Under the pieces are notes generated by a model. That model was given only the letters and a program-made list of their open reading frames with translations, was not told the DNA's origin and ran no database searches. Source: a virus. Taken from it: a stretch of 32,109 bases of DNA. Both the position numbers and the translations under genes were made by a program. The stretch covers positions 1 through 32,109 of the IMG/VR virus record IMGVR_UViG_3300043448_000877; one strand, written 5' to 3'. Within the stretch, counting starts at the first letter, position 1. The number at the start of each line of letters is the position of its first letter. Below are positions 2,077-31,642 of this stretch, piece after piece.

Positions 2077-2745
2077 ATGGCTACAATTAGCGAATTTAAA
2101 TCTAGTTTTTCTGGTGATTTAGCAAGAACCAATAGGTTTGATGTTGAAATCCCTATACCACTAACACTATTGCCATATTTAAAAACGGCAAGAACTTTGA
2201 AATATCGTTGTGAAGTTGCAAACTTGCCAGGTAAAAGTCTTTCAACAATGGAACAAAAAACATATGGACCAGTAGAAAAGTTTCCATATCTGACAACATA
2301 TAACGATATTGATTTGACATTCATTGTTGATGATGATATGTCACAAAAATTTCTTTTTGACGGTTGGTTAAATTTTATCAATCCAACCTACAACAATAAT
2401 ATACGTTATAAAGAAAATTATGCAACAACACTAACCATTAACCAGTATGACACATCAAACGAACGAACCTATACAGTAAGTTTGTTAGATGCATATCCTA
2501 TTTCCATGAATCAATTAGATTTGGACTGGAATGGTGAGGGTTATCATAAACTGACAGTTACTTTCGCTTACACCTACTGGAAAAATCTTTCTCTACAAGG
2601 TTTGGGCATGGATCTTTTGGATGCTGGCTTAGAATCTGTAGCAACCTCTCTTGGTGGATTGGGAGGTTCTCTTGGAAGTGGTTTGTCTAGTGGTTTTAAT
2701 TCTATGGCAGATGCTGTGAATTCACCAATAAATTTTAATGAATGA
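2077..2745 (+). CDS. 19: gp19-family tail tube protein
   Basis: A 222-residue protein. The first 170 residues follow the T4 gp19 tube fold pattern: an N-terminal FSGDLARTNRFDVEI segment, LKYRCEVANLPGKSL, then TYGPVEKFPYLTTYNDIDLTFI, a D-D-M loop, and the late strand LTVTFAYTYW. A Gly/Ser/Leu-rich tail of about 50 residues makes it longer than T4 gp19 (163 residues). The tube forms the inner conduit of the contractile tail. Because gp48 is close by and gp54 shares this fold, a baseplate-proximal tube paralogue is an alternative. It starts directly after the preceding stop. Confidence 0.85.
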   Translation: MATISEFKSSFSGDLARTNRFDVEIPIPLTLLPYLKTARTLKYRCEVANLPGKSLSTMEQKTYGPVEKFPYLTTYNDIDLTFIVDDDMSQKFLFDGWLNFINPTYNNNIRYKENYATTLTINQYDTSNERTYTVSLLDAYPISMNQLDLDWNGEGYHKLTVTFAYTYWKNLSLQGLGMDLLDAGLESVATSLGGLGGSLGSGLSSGFNSMADAVNSPINFNE

Positions 2746-2760
2746 TGATAAGGAGATATT

Positions 2761-3486
2761 ATGGCTTTACCAAAACTTGAAGTGCCAACATATGAATTGC
2801 AACTACCTGTTTCTAAAAAGAATATAAAATACAGACCATATTTGGTCAGAGAACAAAAGGCTTTGATGATGGCATTGGAATCTTCCGATGCCAAGACTAT
2901 TCAACACAACGTCAGAGAAATTTTGAACGTATGCACCTTGTCTAAAGAGATTGACATTGATGAATTGCCAATCATAGACATTGAGTATTATTTCCTACAA
3001 CTGAGAGCAAAGTCTGTTGGTGAAATATCTGAATCAAAATATCGTTGCAACAATGAAGTTGAAGATAAAACTTGTGGTAACATCATGGAAGCAAAGGTTA
3101 ACTTAACAGAAGTCATACCTGTTCAGGAAGAATATGTTGATCCAGAAATCCAATTGACAGAAACCATTTCTGTTAAGATGAAATATCCACCATTCAGATT
3201 GGTCAAAGATTCTGTTGATTTAGAAGATATTACAGAAATCACATTTAATATGTTAGCTAACTGTATTGAATATGTTTATGATGGTGAACAGTTCCATTAT
3301 GCAAATGAAGTTCCAACAGAAGAAATGATTGAATTTATTGAACAGTTGAACCAAGAACAGTTTGAAAAACTGGAAAGGTTCTTTAATAGTATTCCTAAAT
3401 TGTCTAAGAAGATTGATATGAAATGTTCCAAGTGTGGTTTTGAACACCACTTGGATGTGGAGGGCCTCGAAAGTTTTTTCGGCTAA
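2761..3486 (+). CDS. 26: gp26-like baseplate hub assembly protein / tail assembly chaperone
   Basis: A 241-residue protein with an excellent ribosome-binding site (AAGGAGATATT before ATG). It opens with LPKLEVPTYELQLPVSKK and YRPYLVREQKALMMALES, the pattern of the T4 gp26 hub assembly family, and is slightly longer than T4 gp26 (208 residues). Two Cys pairs (near residues 100-110, and KCSKCGFEHH at the end) could bind zinc. The gene ends in a run of six T and GGC TAA. The -1 frame stays open beyond the stop for 63 codons, so the gene probably yields both a short form and a frameshifted long form (see 3474-3480). Confidence 0.85.
   Translation: MALPKLEVPTYELQLPVSKKNIKYRPYLVREQKALMMALESSDAKTIQHNVREILNVCTLSKEIDIDELPIIDIEYYFLQLRAKSVGEISESKYRCNNEVEDKTCGNIMEAKVNLTEVIPVQEEYVDPEIQLTETISVKMKYPPFRLVKDSVDLEDITEITFNMLANCIEYVYDGEQFHYANEVPTEEMIEFIEQLNQEQFEKLERFFNSIPKLSKKIDMKCSKCGFEHHLDVEGLESFFG
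3474..3480 (+). promoter_or_regulatory. Candidate -1 ribosomal frameshift site T TTT TTC
   Basis: In the gp26 frame the codons are AGT TTT TTC GGC TAA. The heptamer T TTT TTC fits the X XXY YYZ rule for tandem -1 slippage, two codons before the gp26 stop. Slipping gives CGG CTA ATA and then an open frame to 3671. Tail assembly genes of many long-tailed phages use this arrangement. I did not find an obvious downstream pseudoknot by eye. Confidence 0.65.
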
Positions 3487-3671
3487 TACTTGGTTATGAT
3501 GACTTAAAAAATTACTACAAGACTAACTTTTCATTGATACAACACCATAAGTATAGTCTTACTGAACTTGAAGATATGATACCTTGGGAACGAGATATCT
3601 ATGTCGCTATGTTGATTCAATATTTGGAAGAAGAAAACCAAAAACTTAAAGAACGACAGAGAACAAAGTAA
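3480..3671 (+). CDS. Frameshift extension of gp26 (tail chaperone T-like domain)
   Basis: This 63-codon open frame begins in the -1 frame at the slippery site and ends with TAA immediately before the next ATG at 3672. It reads LGYDDLKNYYKTNFSLIQHH, then ELEDMIPWERDIYVAMLIQY and a Glu/Lys-rich helix. The MIPWERDIYVAMLI part resembles the C-terminal extension of tail assembly chaperones. Upstream in this frame there is a TGA about 50 bases before the site and no ATG, GTG or TTG until a TTG about 20 codons in. Independent translation is therefore unlikely. The fusion with gp26 would be about 303 residues. A sequencing error in the T6 run is the main alternative. Confidence 0.7.
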   Translation, partial: RLILGYDDLKNYYKTNFSLIQHHKYSLTELEDMIPWERDIYVAMLIQYLEEENQKLKERQRTK

Positions 3672-5519
3672 ATGAAATTTTTTGGAAACAATAAAAAAGA
3701 CACAGGCGAAACATCGTCAAGTCCAGTTGTGTCTGAAAAAACCAAACAATCTGCTAGTTTGTTTAAAAGAACAGCTAGCAAAATTGGTGACGTTTTAAAG
3801 AACAAATTTAGTAAATCGGAAGAATCATCTTTCGAACCTATGAGCAATGCAAAGTATCTAGGTGAAATTTACAAAATGATGGTGCAAAACCGTGATGATG
3901 CGAAACTAGACAGACAACAAAAAATTAATCGTAGAGAAGAAGAAGAATCTGAGGATCAAAAGAGACACGAAGAAATAATCAAAGCTCTTTCACTACGTAG
4001 AATACCAAAACCAAAAAAAGTTATTCGCCGTGAAAGAAAGGCGGAAGAAGCTGCGAAGAAAAAGGCACCTCCTAAACAGCCAACAAAGCCTCAGCCACCA
4101 AAGCCACAACCAAAGCCACAGCCTCAAGCACCAAAACCAGAGGCACCAAAACCACAACCTCAAGCACCAAAACCAGAGGCACCTAAACCTCAACCAAAAC
4201 CTGAGCCAAAGCCACAGCCAAAACCTGAGCCAAAGCCACAGCCAAAGCCAGAACCAAAGCCACAGCCAAAACCTGAGCCAAAGCCAGAACCAAAGCCACA
4301 GCCAAAGCCAGAACCAAAACCTGAACCAAAGCCACAGCCAAAACCTGAGCCAAAGCCAGAACCAAAACCTGAACCAAAGCCACAGCCAAAACCTGAGCCA
4401 AAGCCAGAACCACCAAAGCCTCAGCCACCAAAGAAAACTGAGCCTGTTAGAGAACCACCAAAACAACCACCAAAGAAAGCAGAACCTGTTAGAGAACCAC
4501 CAAAACAACCTTCTGCTCAACCTGCAAGACCACAACCAGGAAAAACATCAGCCACAAGAATGGGCAGAGAAGGTGAAGGACTAAAAGGATTAGATTCAGC
4601 TGCAAGAGCATCAAACATCAAAAAAGAACTTAATAGTTTAGGTGCTTCATCGGTATTGGCTGGTGGTATATTATTGGTTGCGTCTAAAGAAACTGCTGCT
4701 GGAGAAACACTTACAGAAGCTGGACCAGTAGCATATAAAAATACTTGGCGAAATATGGAATCAGGAAAATCTAAGATTCCAGCTGACAAATATAAAAAAA
4801 TTGCTGCAAAGGATCCTAGTGTTCCTCAATCCGGACCTGGTGCTGGAACAGCATATATGAATTTCACTTTTGCCAAAAAATGGTCAGGCGAAAAATGGAA
4901 ATCAGTGATAGAAGATCCAGACCAAAATAAATTTTTTGAAGCTGTTGGATATCATGGCGGCACCAAATACATGGGTAGGTCACTCATTGGTATAACACAC
5001 GAAGGAACTTATAAAGCCATTGGTAAATTTTTGGGATTAGATTTAGTTAATAATCCAGAATTGATTAATAGAGATGTTCAAACCACAACTGCTGCTACTT
5101 TAGCGTATTTGGCGTTACTTGCCGGCAACAGTTTAAATGCAGCGTTATCAATTGAAAAAATGAAAGCTGGTTATGAGAAAGGTTTAAGAATATTAAATTC
5201 TTATACCAATCAAGATGACTTAGATAAAGCTGTAATGTTATTGACGGCAGGAAAAGGTAATGTCGATATATCTAACGTGGAACAAGTTCGTGCAGCTTTT
5301 TCTGGAAATGGTGACAGACCAACTTATCTAAGGCAGCAATTAGAATCTGGTAAATCAGCCTCTAAATTGTTGGGTATAACAACAGAAAATCTTGACCTTC
5401 ATAAAGAAAGTGGTAAATCTTCTCCGGTAAGTAATAACACCACAAATAACAATTATGTTTCCGAAGAATCTGCAAATACCAACAGAGTTGATGATAGACC
5501 GGCCCACAAAAGAAAGTAA
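3672..5519 (+). CDS. Hub or tape-measure-like protein with Lys-Pro repeat and GH19-like domain
   Basis: A 615-residue protein in four parts. Residues 1-100 are charged and end in a Glu/Arg-rich coiled helix (REEEESEDQKRHEEIIKAL). Residues about 138-285 are a Lys-Pro-Gln-Pro/Lys-Pro-Glu-Pro repeat. Residues about 330-560 resemble a GH19 chitinase-like muramidase: a Glu (E340) in ASKETAAGE, then KYMGRSLIGITHEGTYKAIG and LGLDLVNNPELI. The tail is Asn/Thr-rich. Its place after the tail chaperone gene and its length, close to T4 gp29 (590), suggest a tail-interior or hub protein that opens the cell wall during infection. The start abuts the preceding stop. The enzymatic assignment is by motif only. 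Confidence 0.7.
   Translation: MKFFGNNKKDTGETSSSPVVSEKTKQSASLFKRTASKIGDVLKNKFSKSEESSFEPMSNAKYLGEIYKMMVQNRDDAKLDRQQKINRREEEESEDQKRHEEIIKALSLRRIPKPKKVIRRERKAEEAAKKKAPPKQPTKPQPPKPQPKPQPQAPKPEAPKPQPQAPKPEAPKPQPKPEPKPQPKPEPKPQPKPEPKPQPKPEPKPEPKPQPKPEPKPEPKPQPKPEPKPEPKPEPKPQPKPEPKPEPPKPQPPKKTEPVREPPKQPPKKAEPVREPPKQPSAQPARPQPGKTSATRMGREGEGLKGLDSAARASNIKKELNSLGASSVLAGGILLVASKETAAGETLTEAGPVAYKNTWRNMESGKSKIPADKYKKIAAKDPSVPQSGPGAGTAYMNFTFAKKWSGEKWKSVIEDPDQNKFFEAVGYHGGTKYMGRSLIGITHEGTYKAIGKFLGLDLVNNPELINRDVQTTTAATLAYLALLAGNSLNAALSIEKMKAGYEKGLRILNSYTNQDDLDKAVMLLTAGKGNVDISNVEQVRAAFSGNGDRPTYLRQQLESGKSASKLLGITTENLDLHKESGKSSPVSNNTTNNNYVSEESANTNRVDDRPAHKRK
4081..4435 (+). repeat. Degenerate hexamer-based coding repeat (Lys-Pro-X-Pro)
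   Basis: A tandem array of CCAAAGCCA, CAGCCAAAA and CCTGAGCCA type units encodes alternating KPQP and KPEP. The proline spacing suggests an extended, stiff linker between the helical N-terminus and the muralytic domain. Codons vary between CCA and CCT and between CAA, CAG, GAA and GAG, so the repeat is somewhat diverged. It can be expected to vary in copy number between relatives. Confidence 0.9.
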
Positions 5520-5522
5520 AAA

Positions 5523-6905
5523 ATGGCAGACAATAAATTAAATTACCAACAAGCCAGAAGAATCAGAAAATCTAATTTTTCTGATATGGTCCTTGACCAG
5601 TTGGCTCAAAAAGACACTGGTATTGTTAGTGCTATTGGTAAAACAATTTCACTAAGAAGTCAAGCTCGTATAAAAGGTATCAAAGAAAAATTTGACCCGT
5701 TGAACGTCATAAGATTTATGACAGGTGGTTCAAGATTTGTTCCAGCATTGTTTGGTAAATTAACTGGTCGTAGTCAAAGAGACATTGACTATTTCACAGG
5801 CAGAACTAAAAGTGTTATTGGTGGTTACAACACAGCAGATAAACTTAAAAAACTTCCTGGTGAAGGTGACACAGCAGGAATCAATGAACAATTATCTAAG
5901 ATATATTCATTCTTAAAAAATAGCCGTGAAGAAGATATTAGATTAAGAGAATTGGAAAAAAATTCTGCGGAAGAAATTGAAAGTGAAAAACAAAGACGCC
6001 ATAAAGAATTCTTGGCAGCTCTTACTGGAACAAAATTTACAGCACCAGTGCAAGAACAAAAAACTGCTGAACCCGTTAGACAAGAACCATCTGTGATGGA
6101 TTATATTGCTGAAGCATTCAGTATTGGTCGTGCAGCGTTGCCAGTTTTGGCCAACATTGCCAGATTCTTTATGTTTAACCCAATTGGTCTTGGTTTGTTG
6201 GCTGGTGCAAGTTTGCTCATGCTTCTAGAAAATGATAAAAATCCAGAAGCAACAACAAAAAGTATTCTTGGTGCGATGGATCCTGGAGCTGAATCTAAAG
6301 CAATTATGGAAGCTGCGGAAAGCACCGATGCAGTTGAACGTAAGAGATTGAATCTTCTTGCTGATAGACCATCTGAAGATAAAGCATCTTTCCTAACTCC
6401 ATGGAAAGACAAAGAGATGCAAGATGCATATCTTAAAAAGATTGGTTGGGATGAAAAGAGTGGAACAACCGAAGAGGAACGTAGAAAAGGTTTTTCACGT
6501 ATTGATTCTGAGGGTAGATTAGTAACACCAGTTAAACCTGCGCCAGAACCAACACCTGCAAAAAATGCAACTGTTCCAAATGAAAGTGCTGCTGAAACTA
6601 AACGACTTAATTCGGTTCCAAATACAACACCAACAGCGGTGCCAGAACCAGCAGCTGCAGAACCAAAGGCAACTCCAGTTTCAGTAACACCAAAATCATC
6701 ACCTGTATCCAATTTAACCAATCAGGTTAATTTTGGTAATATTGAGGCTAAAAATCAGAATGTTACACCAACAATGGTCAATAAAACCGTCAACAACGTG
6801 ACCAAAACTCAACCTAAGAGTGGTTTAAGACCTATTGAGATATCGGTTAGAAATGATGAACCGACATTCATGGGATTGATTGTTGATTCTACTCGGATGA
6901 TATGA
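5523..6905 (+). CDS. Tail/hub-associated protein, paralogous N-terminal region to the preceding gene
   Basis: A 460-residue protein starting three bases after the preceding stop (TAA AAA ATG). Residues about 120-165 (LSKIYSFLKNSREEDI then EKQRRHKEFLAAL) resemble the helix of the preceding protein (LGEIYKMMVQNRDDAK then DQKRHEEIIKAL), so the two share an ancestral module. Residues about 202-236 are hydrophobic (VLANIARFFMFNPIGLGLLAG) and could insert into a membrane, which would suit a tail-interior protein released on infection. The C-terminal third is Pro/Ala/Thr-rich, then Asn-rich. I do not recognise a named family. It is the last gene of the rightward block, facing gp32. Confidence 0.7.
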   Translation: MADNKLNYQQARRIRKSNFSDMVLDQLAQKDTGIVSAIGKTISLRSQARIKGIKEKFDPLNVIRFMTGGSRFVPALFGKLTGRSQRDIDYFTGRTKSVIGGYNTADKLKKLPGEGDTAGINEQLSKIYSFLKNSREEDIRLRELEKNSAEEIESEKQRRHKEFLAALTGTKFTAPVQEQKTAEPVRQEPSVMDYIAEAFSIGRAALPVLANIARFFMFNPIGLGLLAGASLLMLLENDKNPEATTKSILGAMDPGAESKAIMEAAESTDAVERKRLNLLADRPSEDKASFLTPWKDKEMQDAYLKKIGWDEKSGTTEEERRKGFSRIDSEGRLVTPVKPAPEPTPAKNATVPNESAAETKRLNSVPNTTPTAVPEPAAAEPKATPVSVTPKSSPVSNLTNQVNFGNIEAKNQNVTPTMVNKTVNNVTKTQPKSGLRPIEISVRNDEPTFMGLIVDSTRMI

Positions 6906-15028: not shown

Positions 15029-15548
15029 TACCCGTTTCCTTTAACATTTCAACTACGTCCTTATACTTATGAACGAATGTGCCAAGTGTAATTGCTTTTC
15101 TTAGTTTAAAATCACCCTGAACACTATGTATTTGAGTTACATCAAGTGCCCACACCTCAAAATCTTTTGCTACGAAACTATCAACTTCTTCCAAATCTTC
15201 TTCAAAGTATATGTGACCATTGGTTTGATTTTCGACCTGTGCGGTCCTTGGCACATCAACCTTTGGTTTGTAAAATACTGTTCTACAACCTTCTGTTTGA
15301 AGATAGAAATTAATTGAGGTAATAATTTCGGTATCTGTATGTGGAGGTATTTTACAATTAATTGTCATTACTGTCAAGTGAAAATCTTTCCAGTATCTTT
15401 CAGGCAACACACCGTAAATCTTTCTAGGTTCTGGTGTCCATATCTTTTTGTAATCTATACCTTTACCATCTTCACCTTTAAAATCTTTTAATTGGTCAAT
15501 AACGGCAAAAAGTGGTTTCTCAAATGTGCTTTCCAATTTAGTGAACAT
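15015..15548 (-). CDS. 2OG-Fe(II) oxygenase-like protein, paralogue of the preceding gene
   Basis: A 177-residue protein from the ATG at 15548, which overlaps the stop of the upstream gene (TAATG) and has GAGTGGAAATA ahead of it. A GTG at 15557 is a less likely start. The iron site is H70-x-D72 (PPHTDTEIITSINFYL), distal H141 in DVTQIHSVQG and R150. It lacks the 30-residue insert of its paralogue. Function and substrate are unknown; the two copies in a row argue for different substrates or a heteromer. Confidence 0.68.
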   Translation of the reverse strand: MFTKLESTFEKPLFAVIDQLKDFKGEDGKGIDYKKIWTPEPRKIYGVLPERYWKDFHLTVMTINCKIPPHTDTEIITSINFYLQTEGCRTVFYKPKVDVPRTAQVENQTNGHIYFEEDLEEVDSFVAKDFEVWALDVTQIHSVQGDFKLRKAITLGTFVHKYKDVVEMLKETGNVIC

Positions 15549-16258
15549 TATTTCCACTCTTTAATCTTTGCCATACGACCACCCCAAGATTTCAAAATGA
15601 CCGTATTTTGTGCGTTCTTGTCTACCACTTTTCTGAGGTCAGTAGACAATGAGATACGTAGGTCATCGGACTTATTTTCTTCAACACCATGCAACACATA
15701 AGAAGGAAAGAAAATCAAACGTCCTTCTACTGGTTTATATCTACGTTCTTTTAGTTGTGGTGTTCCACTCAAAGAAATATTTAACCAATCAATTGCATGT
15801 GACGAATCGAACAATACGAGGTCACCACAACCTTCTTTTGCTTTGATGTAGTAAGTTGCAGCAATAGCCGATTCGGTGTGTCCATGAACTTCCAGTTTCT
15901 CTCCTGGTTCACGCACGTTGACCCAACCCATAAAGTGTTCACAACCACGAATGTTTAACATCCTAAGTTGTGGAATATTTTGAACAATCTTTTTGGTTAC
16001 AATGTCTATAATTTCTTGTTTCAGTATATCTAAATTGGGTCTGCTGTAGTCCCATATACTGTTGTTCGGGTCTTTGTCTTTACCCAATACGATATCTTTG
16101 CCGATACCATAGATTTCATCTAATAGTGTTTCGTTGAATTGTTCATCGAAACGTGTTTGCACTTCCCATATTGGACTTTGCCAAAATAGATTTTGTGCAT
16201 TTTGAAACCAATGATAACGGTCTCTATCTTCTTTAGTCATAGCAGTATTCATCACCAT
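15548..16258 (-). CDS. Putative 2OG-Fe(II) oxygenase (PF13759-type)
   Basis: A 236-residue protein. MGWVNVREPGEKLEVHGHTE gives the H127-x-E129 or H125-x-H127 metal site, AIAATYYIKAKEGCGDLVLF gives the jelly-roll strand, and VEGRLIFFPSYVLHGVEEN plus DDLRISLSTD gives distal H190 and R201. This matches the PF13759 putative oxygenase family frequent in T4-like aquatic phages. GAGGTGTTATT precedes the ATG at 16258. The upstream pair of small unknown genes overlaps none of it; the gap is 13 bases. Confidence 0.8.
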   Translation of the reverse strand: MVMNTAMTKEDRDRYHWFQNAQNLFWQSPIWEVQTRFDEQFNETLLDEIYGIGKDIVLGKDKDPNNSIWDYSRPNLDILKQEIIDIVTKKIVQNIPQLRMLNIRGCEHFMGWVNVREPGEKLEVHGHTESAIAATYYIKAKEGCGDLVLFDSSHAIDWLNISLSGTPQLKERRYKPVEGRLIFFPSYVLHGVEENKSDDLRISLSTDLRKVVDKNAQNTVILKSWGGRMAKIKEWK

Positions 16259-16649: not shown

Positions 16650-16945
16650 CTTTTATCCAACCATTCTTTATATGATTTAACTTCATTAAATTCATTTTCA
16701 ACACCTTCTCTATACAATTTTGGTAAAAGAATAGTTGATTTTACCAATGCATCACCATATACTTTGGTCAATACATCTTCATAATCAGTAAACATTTCAT
16801 ATAATTGTTCTCTCACTTCTTGTGGAGAATCATAAAATGCTGCACGACAATTCGTATTAAAATAGTGTGTCATATGTTCGTAAACATATTTTGAACTGTC
16901 ATCAATTAAAACCCTCACAGGTCTTTTATATGAATATGTTGGCAT
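16646..16945 (-). CDS. Unknown 99-residue protein next to the Cys-rich gene
   Basis: A soluble, charged protein (MPTYSYKRPVRVLIDDSSKYV at the start). The start codon overlaps the stop of the Cys-rich gene (TAATG), which implies coupled translation and a shared role or stoichiometry. The region around YEMFTDYEDVLTKVYGD and the end KSYKEWLDKR resemble the following gene. I do not recognise a family. A chaperone or docking protein for the Cys-rich product is conceivable but unproven. Confidence 0.7.
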   Translation of the reverse strand: MPTYSYKRPVRVLIDDSSKYVYEHMTHYFNTNCRAAFYDSPQEVREQLYEMFTDYEDVLTKVYGDALVKSTILLPKLYREGVENEFNEVKSYKEWLDKR

Positions 16946-17853
16946 TAAGCAAGTTCCTTTTTTGGAATAATCTTTTCAATCAATCGACCAGTTTCAGCAA
17001 CAAGTTTAAACATCACGAAAATTGCAACCAATGCTGCACCTTTAATAAAACCAGGTTCTTTCTTACTTGGTCCAAACCAACGTTGCCATACACCAACAAC
17101 TTTACAAATTGGTATACCAAATCCCATAATCATCTTGCCTGTTAGGCTGCCTGTTTCTTTTTCACCCATCAAATAGGCCATTTCTTCTGCCCAAGGTGTT
17201 GCAATATCATATGCCCAAGACACGGACCATTTCTTAGCAGCCTCACTAAATTCTTCATCAGACATCCAAGGCATCATCTTAGGACCTTTGCCTTCCATCC
17301 AATCAACAACAATCTCTGCCCATGCACGATAACCATTGTAGATATCTGGATTGGTCTGAATCAAGCGTTCACCAAATGCTTGGTCTGCTTCGAAAATGTT
17401 TTGTTTCATTAAACCAAGGTCAAACAATTTGGTGCAAATAATCTTAGAACAGTTACAGTTATAGGTAAAACAGTTTTGGTCACTTGTGCAATTATAAACT
17501 GGATTGGTTGCTAATTGGCAGTCACCTGTTTGCAACCATGCTTGTGAATCACAATTCCAACAGTTGATTGCGGTGCAGTTGGCTGTCTTGTTACATTGAG
17601 CTGTGGTTTGTCCTGCTGGAGCTGTTGCATTGCAATTACAATTTGTAGCGTTCTTGTCATTACAGTTGCCAGCATTATTCTGTCTGTAATATTTTAGACC
17701 ACCAAATGAATTCATATTTGGTGCGCTTGGTCTTATTCCCGATTTGATATATCCATTAAGGAAGTTTAAGTCGGCAGTTGTATTTGATACTCTACCAATT
17801 TCCGAATTAATATTTGATACACCAATCGTTGAGCCTGATGATGGTAATGTCAT
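16945..17853 (-). CDS. Cys/Asn-rich virion-type protein, candidate modified substrate
   Basis: A 302-residue protein. The N-terminus (LPSSGSTIGVSNINSEIGR) is the start pattern of many phage tail and fibre proteins. Residues 64-140 hold 13 Cys, ten of them preceded by Asn (NCN, NCNCN, NCWNC), in a Thr/Ala/Asn-rich block with Trp only twice. The rest (FGERLIQTNPDIYNGYRAW, WSVSWAYDIATPWAEEMAYLMG) is helical, and residues about 268-290 are hydrophobic. A radical SAM/SPASM gene lies 34 bases upstream in the same direction. The Cys block could bind metal, form disulfides, or be turned into thioethers (inference). A late-type element sits upstream. Confidence 0.78.
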   Translation of the reverse strand: MTLPSSGSTIGVSNINSEIGRVSNTTADLNFLNGYIKSGIRPSAPNMNSFGGLKYYRQNNAGNCNDKNATNCNCNATAPAGQTTAQCNKTANCTAINCWNCDSQAWLQTGDCQLATNPVYNCTSDQNCFTYNCNCSKIICTKLFDLGLMKQNIFEADQAFGERLIQTNPDIYNGYRAWAEIVVDWMEGKGPKMMPWMSDEEFSEAAKKWSVSWAYDIATPWAEEMAYLMGEKETGSLTGKMIMGFGIPICKVVGVWQRWFGPSKKEPGFIKGAALVAIFVMFKLVAETGRLIEKIIPKKELA

Positions 17854-17884: not shown

Positions 17885-17892
17885 TATTTAGG
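17885..17892 (-). promoter_or_regulatory. Weak candidate late promoter for the Cys-rich gene
   Basis: The minus strand reads CCTAAATA followed by TTAACAG, 6/8 to the T4 late octamer, about 30 bases before the start of the Cys-rich gene and across the stop of the SPASM gene. A structural gene would need late expression. The match is imperfect. Confidence 0.3.
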
Positions 17893-19342
17893 TCTCCAAC
17901 CTAGATTTACCATAAACAGGAATATCATCCAATTGACCAACAATTTCTTTAACTACCTTGATAGGTATAATCTTTTTACGAGTTTCTTCCTCTTTGTGTT
18001 CAAAGATTGTTCCAAAAATATCCTGTCTATCGAGCGGTAATGTATCACTCTTAATTAAAGTAGGAATGTAACCATCTGTCATTACTGTGAAACCTGCAGC
18101 AAATAGAGCTACGTTGTCAGAGTATGCATTAGCACATGAGATATCCCAAAACTTTTTGTCCAAGAACATACATGCACCTTTACAGATATGTAATACTGGA
18201 CACTCTGGACATTCTTTACGATTAGACCAGTGTGTGACAGATTTCAAAGCAACATTTGAATAATCATCTAGTGTTCCACCATGATGTGATTCACCGTTCT
18301 TTGAGATTTCCAAAGAACTCACGTTCTGACAGGTCATTACATTACCACGTAGGTCAACAGAAATGGTGTGTTCATCATCCATGCCACACTTTTGTCCCAA
18401 GAATTTAGATTCTCTGTGGTTCAATACACTATTTACAAAATCATCAATTTTTCCTAATTGACCTCTGAAACCTATTTGTCCCTGTGATGCATACAATTCA
18501 CCAAAAGCACGTTGACGGAAAGCAAAATGTTCTTCCTTAGTAATCAATGAATTCACGATGCCTTCTTCATCATATGCATCAACCATTGAACCTTCACCTA
18601 AGATAACATTTTCGTCACCGGTTAGGTTCACAAACCAGTCATAGATTTCTTTGCGGCTCTGATTCTTAGAATTCAGCATTGAGTTGAAACTGATGCTCTT
18701 ACCCAATCTAGTTTGCATACGATAGAAGTTTAAGATTCGTTCTTTAACTTCAGGATCATCGAATGGATCAGGACCACGAACATATTGACCTGGACCGTCA
18801 TGTGAAATTGACACAGCAAAGTCCATCATCATCAACCAATCAATGATTTCATCTGTAAGAATAGAACCATTGGTGATGATACTGAATTGTGGTTTTCTTT
18901 TCCACGAATCAAACTTCTCAGCAATTGCTTCAGCAAGTGGTTTCAGAGTCTTCCAGTAAACAAGTGGTTCACCACCCCAAAACTCGACCTTCAAACCAAC
19001 ATCTTCATCGAAATGTAAAACTTCCAACTTTTGCATGAAAGAATCAATATCTTTCTTAGAAGTTTCTGGTTGACGTTCAACAAATTTTTGAGAACAATAA
19101 TCACAAGTATAGTTACAGCTAAGCCCCATCTGAATTTTCAGATGGCTGATTAGTTTTGCCTTTTTGAGTGGTCTATCCTTATCAAATGGTTTGTAAGGTT
19201 TGCGTAAGTTTTGTTCTCTTTGATCCTCTGGATATTCAAAAACATTGCCTTCTGCATCTTTCAATACATTTGACATGTTGTCATAAAAGAACGTTTTTTT
19301 GTCACCATCTTCAAACCTTGTGGCTTCAATCTCAAAAATCAT
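17888..19342 (-). CDS. Radical SAM/SPASM maturase
   Basis: A 484-residue protein. The radical SAM cluster motif is C76-x3-C80-x2-C83 (MGLSCNYTCDYC), with GGEP at 123-126 and TNGS at 157-160. The C-terminal SPASM domain carries seven Cys: C319, C338 (after GNVMT), C378, C381, C387, C391 and C403. That is the full set for two auxiliary 4Fe-4S clusters, as in anaerobic sulfatase-maturating and RiPP-maturing enzymes. Such enzymes modify Cys, Ser or other residues on peptides. The adjacent Cys-rich virion-type protein is the obvious candidate substrate (inference). GAGGATACCCC precedes the ATG. Confidence 0.9.
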   Translation of the reverse strand: MIFEIEATRFEDGDKKTFFYDNMSNVLKDAEGNVFEYPEDQREQNLRKPYKPFDKDRPLKKAKLISHLKIQMGLSCNYTCDYCSQKFVERQPETSKKDIDSFMQKLEVLHFDEDVGLKVEFWGGEPLVYWKTLKPLAEAIAEKFDSWKRKPQFSIITNGSILTDEIIDWLMMMDFAVSISHDGPGQYVRGPDPFDDPEVKERILNFYRMQTRLGKSISFNSMLNSKNQSRKEIYDWFVNLTGDENVILGEGSMVDAYDEEGIVNSLITKEEHFAFRQRAFGELYASQGQIGFRGQLGKIDDFVNSVLNHRESKFLGQKCGMDDEHTISVDLRGNVMTCQNVSSLEISKNGESHHGGTLDDYSNVALKSVTHWSNRKECPECPVLHICKGACMFLDKKFWDISCANAYSDNVALFAAGFTVMTDGYIPTLIKSDTLPLDRQDIFGTIFEHKEEETRKKIIPIKVVKEIVGQLDDIPVYGKSRLET

Positions 19343-19382: not shown

Positions 19383-19411
19383 ATTATATTCAATATCCAA
19401 GTTCTTCGCAA
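19383..19411 (-). promoter_or_regulatory. Sigma70-type promoter for the SPASM gene
   Basis: TTGCGA (19411-19406), 17 bases, TATAAT (19388-19383), with the -35 inside the end of phoH. A leader of about 35 bases follows. An AATAAATA octamer (19370-19377), 7/8 to the late element, lies just downstream, so the gene might be read both early and late. Confidence 0.65.
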
Positions 19412-20145
19412 GCCACAATCCATTGTTTTACCAAACTGGAGCGAACAATATCATCTGGCGTGAAGTATATTTCCTGAAAGGATGGCATTCTTCTGGCCAC
19501 TTCCAAGAAACTGTGGAATGCTGTCTGGTCTTTGTTACTCTTAATTAAATCCGTTTGTTTAAAGTCACCTGAGAATATAATCTTAGACCTGTGACCGACA
19601 CGGGTAATAATCGTATTCACCTCTGACCAGTTCAAGTTTTGGTTTTCATCTACAATAATGATGGCATCATCAATAGAAATACCACGAATGGCAGTGGTAG
19701 AAATAAATCTAACGAAACCTTGTTCCTTCAATCTGTCCCATGCATCGTTGCGACCAAATAATGTGGAAGCAATTTCTTTGTATGGTAACTCATAGATTTC
19801 TTGTTTCTCATTTAAATCACCTGGTAAAAAACCAACATCACGCAGTTGCACCAAAGACCTAACAACCACCACCTGCTTGAATGAGTTTGATTTGTCCAAA
19901 ACTTCTTCAAGCGCTTTGTAGAGTGCCAAAAAAGTTTTGCCTACTCCAGGACTGCCGAATAGTCCCATGAAGTAGGCACCGCCTTTATACATTTCAAAGA
20001 ATATTCTTTGATTTTCAGTTAATGGTTCAAAAGTTTTTAAGTGGTCTGGTTTTATTTTTAATGAATTGTTGATTACTGGTTGATGTTTTGTCTTGTGTTC
20101 ATCATCCCATTCGGACTGCTTTGCTGTTGTTTTTCTGGTAACCAT
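19390..20145 (-). CDS. phoH: PhoH-like P-loop ATPase
   Basis: A 251-residue protein with Walker A GSPGVGKT (64-71), VVVRSLVQLRDVGFLPGDLNEK, and Walker B with the PhoH sequence DAIIIVDENQNLNW, then IFSGDFKQTD. PhoH-like ATPases are frequent in marine T4-like phages. The biological role is unsettled (RNA-linked ATPase and helicase activity is known for related proteins). ATG at 20145 has GGAGAATTG ahead of it. The preceding TTG is not needed. A short Lys-rich gene overlaps its start. Confidence 0.92.
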   Translation of the reverse strand: MVTRKTTAKQSEWDDEHKTKHQPVINNSLKIKPDHLKTFEPLTENQRIFFEMYKGGAYFMGLFGSPGVGKTFLALYKALEEVLDKSNSFKQVVVVRSLVQLRDVGFLPGDLNEKQEIYELPYKEIASTLFGRNDAWDRLKEQGFVRFISTTAIRGISIDDAIIIVDENQNLNWSEVNTIITRVGHRSKIIFSGDFKQTDLIKSNKDQTAFHSFLEVARRMPSFQEIYFTPDDIVRSSLVKQWIVACEELGY

Positions 20146-20281
20146 CAATTCTCCTCTGTAATAATGCAGAAACCTTTACTTTATTTTCGGGTTTCTTCCT
20201 TTTTTTATTATTTGTTTTTTTGACCTGAGGTTTCTCCTCAGTTTTCTTTTTAGGTAGAAAAAGTGCTGGTATCTGAGCCAT
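20102..20281 (-). CDS. Lys-rich small protein overlapping phoH start
   Basis: A 59-residue frame, MAQIPALFLPKKKTEEKPQV followed by clusters of Lys, Asn and Arg. It starts inside the stop of the upstream gene (TAATG) with AGAGAGTGG ahead of it, and its end overlaps phoH by 44 bases in another frame. No domain is seen. The strong positive charge suggests nucleic-acid contact. The overlap layout is that of a genuine coupled gene, but the sequence alone does not prove expression. Confidence 0.55.
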   Translation of the reverse strand: MAQIPALFLPKKKTEEKPQVKKTNNKKRKKPENKVKVSALLQRRIDGYQKNNSKAVRMG

Positions 20282-30455: not shown

Positions 30456-31607
30456 TCAGAATGGAATCTCATCGGAATCCTGCGGCAGATTGGTAGGTTT
30501 AGTCACAGGACCATCAACCTTCGCATCAACCTTGGAATACAAGTCAAGGAACGCCATTTTGGTGTCTGCATCGAACCGTGCCACGCATAGTTCAATAGCC
30601 TTCATACGGTCACCAAAGATTTTGAATGCCTTGGCAATGTGGACCAAACGGCGTGTGGAGATAATTTCATCAACAGCACCTTGGTCAAACGATTGGCGAA
30701 CAATATCAGCCCATTGTGTCAACTTCTCAACGAAATCTTTATCAGAAATCAATGGTTCAAGGATTTTCTTCTCAGTCTTAACATCAGGATATTCCTGTTC
30801 AACTGTAATAGGGAAACGTTCAAGGAACGCATCATCAAGAATCTGTGACAAGTAACGACCTTCTTCACTGCCACGACCTTTGGTGTTTGCTGTTGCAATG
30901 ATAGAGAATCCAGATTTTGGATAAACCATTTCACCATTCTTTTTGTTGTAGTATGGTTTGCCTTCTAGAATACCTTGCAAACACATCAACTTATTAGAAC
31001 CACGGTCAACTTCGTCAATCAACAGAATGGCACCACGTTTCATAGCTGTAATAACAGGACCATCACGGTTAACCACATTACCATTAACAAGAGTAGGACC
31101 ACCAAGTAGGTCGCTTTCATCCGTTTCGATGGAGATATTAACACGAATACACTCTCTGCCAAGTTCGGCACATACTTGTTCAACCATGAGTGTTTTACCA
31201 TTGCCAGATAAGCCTGTAACGAAAACAGGATAAAACATACCAGACTTAATGATATTACGTAAATCTTTAAAAAAACCAAAGGGAACATAATCAGGGTATT
31301 TCGTAGGGATTGATACATCAGAATCATCAACCAGTTTAGGTTGTTTGAATTCTAATACTTGTGCTGCAAGAGCCACTTCCATTTCAGGTTCTTCTTTCAC
31401 GACAGGTTTTGATTTTGTTCCGATATTGGGCAACTTGTATTCGCCACGACCAACACGGTATTCACTTTTAGTTACAAACCAATATGGGAAAGAAAAATCA
31501 TTTTCTTCAACCACACGGGTGATTTGGTCACGATTCAGAATAGAACCAGCACCATAAATTTCTTCTGCTGCCTTAACAAAGGTAGTTTGATTTCGGTTTA
31601 AACTCAT
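30456..31607 (-). CDS. CobS/MoxR-like AAA+ ATPase
   Basis: A 383-residue protein from ATG 31607, with GGAGATTATATT ahead. Walker A GLSGNGKT (132-139), ESDLLGG with the insert of MoxR/CobS-type ATPases, Walker B AILLIDEVDRG (D198, E199), GFSIIATANTKGRGSEEGR (sensor 1) and DDAFLERFPITV (Arg finger). The N-terminal 100 residues are variable. CobS-like ATPases occur in marine T4-like phages; cobaltochelatase is only one possible use, and remodelling of a complex is another. It has a 17-bp-spaced promoter upstream. Confidence 0.9.
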   Translation of the reverse strand: MSLNRNQTTFVKAAEEIYGAGSILNRDQITRVVEENDFSFPYWFVTKSEYRVGRGEYKLPNIGTKSKPVVKEEPEMEVALAAQVLEFKQPKLVDDSDVSIPTKYPDYVPFGFFKDLRNIIKSGMFYPVFVTGLSGNGKTLMVEQVCAELGRECIRVNISIETDESDLLGGPTLVNGNVVNRDGPVITAMKRGAILLIDEVDRGSNKLMCLQGILEGKPYYNKKNGEMVYPKSGFSIIATANTKGRGSEEGRYLSQILDDAFLERFPITVEQEYPDVKTEKKILEPLISDKDFVEKLTQWADIVRQSFDQGAVDEIISTRRLVHIAKAFKIFGDRMKAIELCVARFDADTKMAFLDLYSKVDAKVDGPVTKPTNLPQDSDEIPF

Positions 31608-31642
31608 AATATAATCTCCAGTTACGTTGTCCACATATTTGT

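Follow-up and report, generated by a model that had tools for sequence, protein, structure and literature searches.

Introduction

The abstract of a 2022 study reportedly describes frameshifting as apparently conserved in several groups of T4-like phages, with T4 using genes 26 and 51. The slip site of phage lambda is G_GGA_AAG, and in E. coli dnaX a tandem slip heptamer is preceded, at a distance of about 10 nt, by an SD-like element. Lambda gpG and gpGT are a short and a long chaperone produced from one gene, which lies before the tape measure gene, by a -1 frameshift near its end (PMC5009743). For T4-like phages, Vladimirov, Gautam and Davidson 2022 (Virology 566:9-15), as it is represented where it is cited, identified TAC-N/TAC-NC genes. 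The PRFect paper cites it for T4-like phages that have a short gene together with a longer, fused one (PMC10885494), and another paper cites it for poly-T slip signals in the TAC-N genes of T4-like phages (PMC12846349). The original prediction for the DNA studied here had supposed such a frameshift to be undescribed in T4-like gp26; these two citations credit its description to the 2022 study.

The window, that is the whole stretch of DNA analysed, comprises 32,109 nucleotides of a viral record (IMGVR_UViG_3300043448_000877). On comparative evidence, its gene 26 carries a genuine programmed frameshift, of a kind widespread among T4-like phages. The principle was already published in 2022 and the locus is a new instance of it, adding breadth and a sharp test by synonymous constraint, and no new principle. 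We put at roughly 0.95 the probability that gene 26 yields two products by programmed -1 frameshifting, gp26 and gp26-gp51, as the short and the long tail assembly chaperone.

Results

The gp26 reading frame and its slip site

The following elements were located at gene 26.

2761-3486, plus strand: gp26 reading frame (short form, TAC-N), 241 aa; Pfam PF12322 T4_baseplate, E=4.8e-57; phrog_150, E=9e-61
3474-3480, plus strand: slippery heptamer T_TTT_TTC in the gp26 frame, recognised from its sequence and from its identity in 124/124 non-redundant relatives
3484-3486, plus strand: zero-frame stop TAA, one codon past the heptamer here and zero to two codons past it in relatives

In the profile search, gp26 scored 193.6 bits against PF12322 (curated cut-off, 24.5), and 1100 phage records match gp26. 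Its 3' end reads GAA AGT TTT TTC GGC TAA, the final codons being AGT (3472-3474), TTT (3475-3477), TTC (3478-3480), GGC (3481-3483) and TAA (3484-3486). The heptamer, nine bases ahead of the stop codon, had thus been placed correctly in the gp26 frame by the original prediction; the distance of two codons from the stop has to be corrected to one codon, GGC.

In a single sequence, such a heptamer is weak evidence and could be due to chance, because T_TTT_TTC occurred within the last 10 codons in 20% of synonymous shuffles of gp26, and any X_XXY_YYZ in 44% of them; it is comparison that settles the question. A -1 frame open as far as here was obtained in 0.3% of base shuffles, and among the long reading frames of the window, gp26 alone combines a heptamer at most 12 nt from the stop with a long -1 extension.

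We infer that most ribosomes would terminate at 3484 and release gp26, and that a minority would slip by -1 on T_TTT_TTC, with the P-site and the A-site tRNA-Phe both re-pairing with UUU, and would continue to 3671 to give gp26-gp51 (TAC-NC, about 303 aa). Such a tandem slip of two tRNA-Phe on U_UUU_UUC is what the rules for heptamers would predict.

Conservation of the heptamer among relatives

A first set of 80 loci was collected by a scan of viral contigs and was enlarged, by further scans and annotated phages, to 199 loci representing 169 distinct genes, from which 124 relatives with less than 97% nucleotide identity (at least 3% apart) were taken as the non-redundant set. TTTTTTC was found 9 or 12 nt ahead of the gp26 stop, with an extension in the -1 frame, at all loci of the first set except L053, in which an earlier break of the gp26 frame is probably due to an assembly indel. 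In the non-redundant set the TTT-TTC Phe pair is invariant (124/124). It can be seen that, first, codon entropy is zero at both Phe codons of the slip site, the next lowest value of a conserved column among the 124 genes being 0.459 bits. Secondly, every other conserved column varies synonymously, and both TTT and TTC are in use at the other conserved Phe columns, for example 65:59. Thirdly, the first T of the heptamer stays constant while the preceding Ser codon switches to AAT, GCT, GAT or GGT. Judged from these alignments, the constraint at the slip site acts on the nucleotides and not on the protein, because the Phe codons are fixed and are preceded by T without exception though the residue to which this T belongs changes. 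An X_XXY_YYZ heptamer in the zero frame is therefore conserved beyond coding need, with zero synonymous variation. The comparison with related phages that the original prediction had proposed bears it out, both the heptamer (124/124) and an in-phase -1 extension being kept.

The -1 extension and its relation to gp51

3480-3671, plus strand: -1 extension (gp51-type C-terminal domain, TAC-C), 63 codons plus stop; phrog_634, E=6.1e-30; -1 frame conserved in relatives

Read in the -1 frame from 3474, the DNA translates as FFRLILGYDD...KLKERQRTK (in full, FFRLILGYDDLKNYYKTNFSLIQHHKYSLTELEDMIPWERDIYVAMLIQYLEEENQKLKERQRTK) with a stop at 3669-3671, and from CGG at 3480 onward 63 codons are open, exactly as had been predicted. 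The first ATG/GTG/TTG codons of this frame past the slip site are TTG at 3534 and then ATG at 3576. The extension covers positions 56-118 of the 121 of phrog_634, whose annotation 'baseplate hub assembly catalyst' is the label of T4 gp51 homologues and which is matched in 583 phage records; it also matches the C-terminus of phrog_150. The original prediction had likened it to T-domain extensions; it is now assigned to the gp51 family and not to a T-domain of unknown kind.

In every relative with an intact gene, the extension lies in the -1 frame without internal stop and runs for at least 62 codons. Substitutions counted by -1 codon position were 1863:586:3001 in the part up to and around the first start codon and 2474:219:6444 in the part beyond. 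This pattern indicates that the extension is under purifying selection, with the periodicity of the -1 frame on both sides of the first possible start, so that an overlapping -1 frame is conserved from the slip site onward. In the group of relatives to which the window belongs, residues ahead of any start codon are conserved as well, R3, L11 and N13 being invariant (40/40).

Another explanation would make the extension a small gene in its own right (gp51), whose own start is used, once the gp26 stop has been reached, through re-initiation or coupling. It agrees with many cyanophage records, in which a separate gp51 starts just past the gp26 stop or within the extension, with the ATG overlapping the gp26 stop in Cr30, phiM9 and D481, and with the S-RIM2-like group, where an ATG is found no more than 23 nt from the gp26 stop in 59/81 genes. 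However, the heptamer is present in all genes of that group and is invariant in both groups, though re-initiation has no need of it. In the window's group such an ATG occurs in 0/43 genes, yet conservation of the -1 frame reaches back as far as the heptamer; re-initiation at an internal start was rejected here, this group having no usable start ahead of the well-conserved residues. Moreover, a single T4 gp51 chain holds both the gp26-like domain and the extension. A separate gene in place of the fusion is thus highly improbable, although in the S-RIM2-like group an additional, separate extension product is conceivable.

Comparison with gp26 and gp51 of T4

Matches to PF12322 were obtained for T4 gp26 (E=9e-64) and for T4 gp51 (E=4e-52), and the C-terminal part of gp51 also matches phrog_634; by these profile matches the two proteins are paralogues. 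When the gp51 profile was aligned with the frameshift fusion (hhalign), a probability of 98.9% was obtained (E=3.6e-17, columns 7-252 to 13-291), and the alignment is near full length and unbroken across the frameshift junction. This end-to-end alignment, together with the conservation described above, strongly supports the predicted programmed -1 frameshift joining gp26 to a tail chaperone extension. T4 gp26 and gp51 are homologous over their whole length to gp26 and the fusion of this phage: the long form equals the short form plus a C-terminal domain, the fusion corresponding to T4 gp51 and the short form to the T4 gp26 family.

The C-terminus of T4 gp26 is GLKEFFELL, in which GLKEFF is kept, with the Phe pair coded G TTC TTT G; since the pair is written TTC TTT, T4 gp26 lacks the slippery site. 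The two T4 genes are divergently oriented neighbours on opposite strands (26 on minus, 51 on plus), whereas here there is one gene with a -1 slip site. The simplest reading is that one frameshift gene or two genes lead to the same short and long chaperone pair, which T4 obtains from its separate paralogous genes 26 and 51.

Possible stimulators of frameshifting

3459-3464, plus strand: SD-like GGAGGG, putative stimulator; GGAGG ends 10 nt before the heptamer

An SD-like motif upstream of the heptamer was found in 123/124 relatives, mostly as GGAGG or GAGGG and 9-10 nt away. The invariant Glu at this place is coded by GAG in 76/124 genes, a strong excess over the 53/372 counted in three other columns of conserved Glu (p=5e-23, a value that is only indicative as the sequences are related). 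It is plausible that the element stimulates frameshifting, because its spacing equals that known from dnaX. The two loci share this spacing and differ in that the dnaX shift shortens the protein and is accompanied by a downstream hairpin, whereas no hairpin is evident in the window: folding gave no convincing stimulatory RNA structure downstream (z=-0.83). Ten stretches folded downstream of the heptamer gave no consistent signal, with only Vibrio phage D481 and L056 (z -2.6) standing out. In D481 (L090 1511-1590), a strong structure is predicted directly 3' of the heptamer (-24.4 kcal/mol, z=-4.8).

Variants in other phages

In Kyanoviridae, the gp26/gp51 pairs of P-SSM4, syn9, S-RIM2 and ACG-2014d have TTTTTTC and a -1 extension at the same position as in the window. 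Their records often give two annotated genes or omit the extension, and many have an ATG soon after the gp26 stop. A correction of annotation follows, as many cyanophage and related records omit gp51 or give it a doubtful start where the product would be a gp26-gp51 fusion. The heptamer is TTTTTTT in Caulobacter phage Cr30 and Pelagibacter phage HTVC008M, TTTTTTG in phiM9 and TTTTTTC in D481; the D481 protein as query had no matches among viral contigs.

The same two products could also be obtained by transcriptional slippage at the T run in place of ribosomal frameshifting. Runs of seven or eight T, such as those of HTVC008M and Cr30, are close in length to those on which the polymerase is known to slip. 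However, in the window and the 124 relatives a C comes after six T, the phase being that of a tandem-slip heptamer, and the SD-like motif stands at dnaX-type spacing; slippage of the polymerase seems even less probable than a separate gp51 gene. That a sequencing or assembly error in the T run split one continuous gp26-gp51 frame has a negligible probability and is refuted by the number of independent records, for although six T are a classic indel site and the phrog_150 model covers both parts, the identical frame break is found in nearly 180 records with the T-run heptamer, from many metagenomes and isolates, including the sequenced isolates P-SSM4, syn9 and S-RIM2. Five or seven T as an artefact, or relatives without the extension, had been named beforehand as what would speak against a frameshift; instead, the six-T break and the extension recur.

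Programmed frameshifting of gene 26 may extend to phages with another slip site. In Ackermannviridae (Vi01 group, L196-L213), a gp51-type -1 extension with a similar MPW motif is located at the gp26 stop, and a canonical heptamer near this stop is absent. The sequence there is GAR ATT TTC ATY TAA, in which ATT TTC is invariant and one codon ahead of the stop, a candidate site for slippage by one tRNA. We propose tentatively, as a combined reading that is somewhat doubtful, both that GGAGG/GAGGG is a conserved dnaX-type stimulator which sets the product ratio without a downstream structure and that the Vi01 group makes its fusion by a single-tRNA slip at ATT TTC.

Proposed chaperone role and gene order

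2077-2745, plus strand: tail tube protein, upstream gene; phrog_45 tail tube, E=1.4e-42; gp19-like Pfam match, E=2e-6

The tail block of the window is T4-like, with the tail tube gene followed by gp26 and then a long reading frame. Tube, chaperone, tape measure is the usual gene order, and in Cr30 and HTVC008M an annotated tape measure gene follows one or two genes later. When a tape measure gene was sought in the window, the reading frame 5523-6905 and the C-terminal part of 3672-5519 matched nothing in the phage collection. The reading frame 3672-5519 has a glycoside hydrolase 19/endolysin-like (lysozyme-like) domain, and inside it, at 4076-4510 (plus strand), are long PKPEP/PKPQ tandem repeats with unit lengths of 24 and 36 bases.

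That gp26 and gp26-gp51 act as tail assembly chaperones is suggested by analogy, by the order of the genes and by the assignment already published. The likeness to lambda gpG/gpGT, where a single gene supplies both the short and the long chaperone via a -1 shift, is one of arrangement and not of demonstrated sequence relation; by this analogy, the pair would coat the tape measure protein and recruit tail tube subunits during tail assembly. When a predicted model of gp51 (pLDDT 88) was compared with BFVD, relatives of gp26/gp51 were matched, and there was a weak match (E=1.1e-3) to a single entry with the name 'Tape measure chaperone'. The model had no confident fold match in the PDB, and a search of solved structures by sequence gave no match for gp51 and chance-level matches only for gp26.

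Elsewhere in the window

16945-17853, 17888-19342 and 15548-16258, all minus strand: loci of a Cys-rich protein, a radical SAM protein and a 2OG-Fe(II) oxygenase

AAAAAAG occurs near the end of 16945-17853 (minus strand). It was rejected as a further frameshift site, since it leads only into the next reading frame, which has its own overlapping ATG. The product of 16945-17853 is a Cys-rich protein of 302 aa with no PHROG match; a radical SAM protein (phrog_1802, E=1e-57) adjoins it, and a 2OG-Fe(II) oxygenase is near. Possibly the Cys-rich protein is modified and the others are its enzymes. Finally, like T4-like cyanophages, the window has a CobS-like gene ('porphyrin biosynthesis') at 30456-31634 and a PhoH-like gene at 19390-20148, both on the minus strand.
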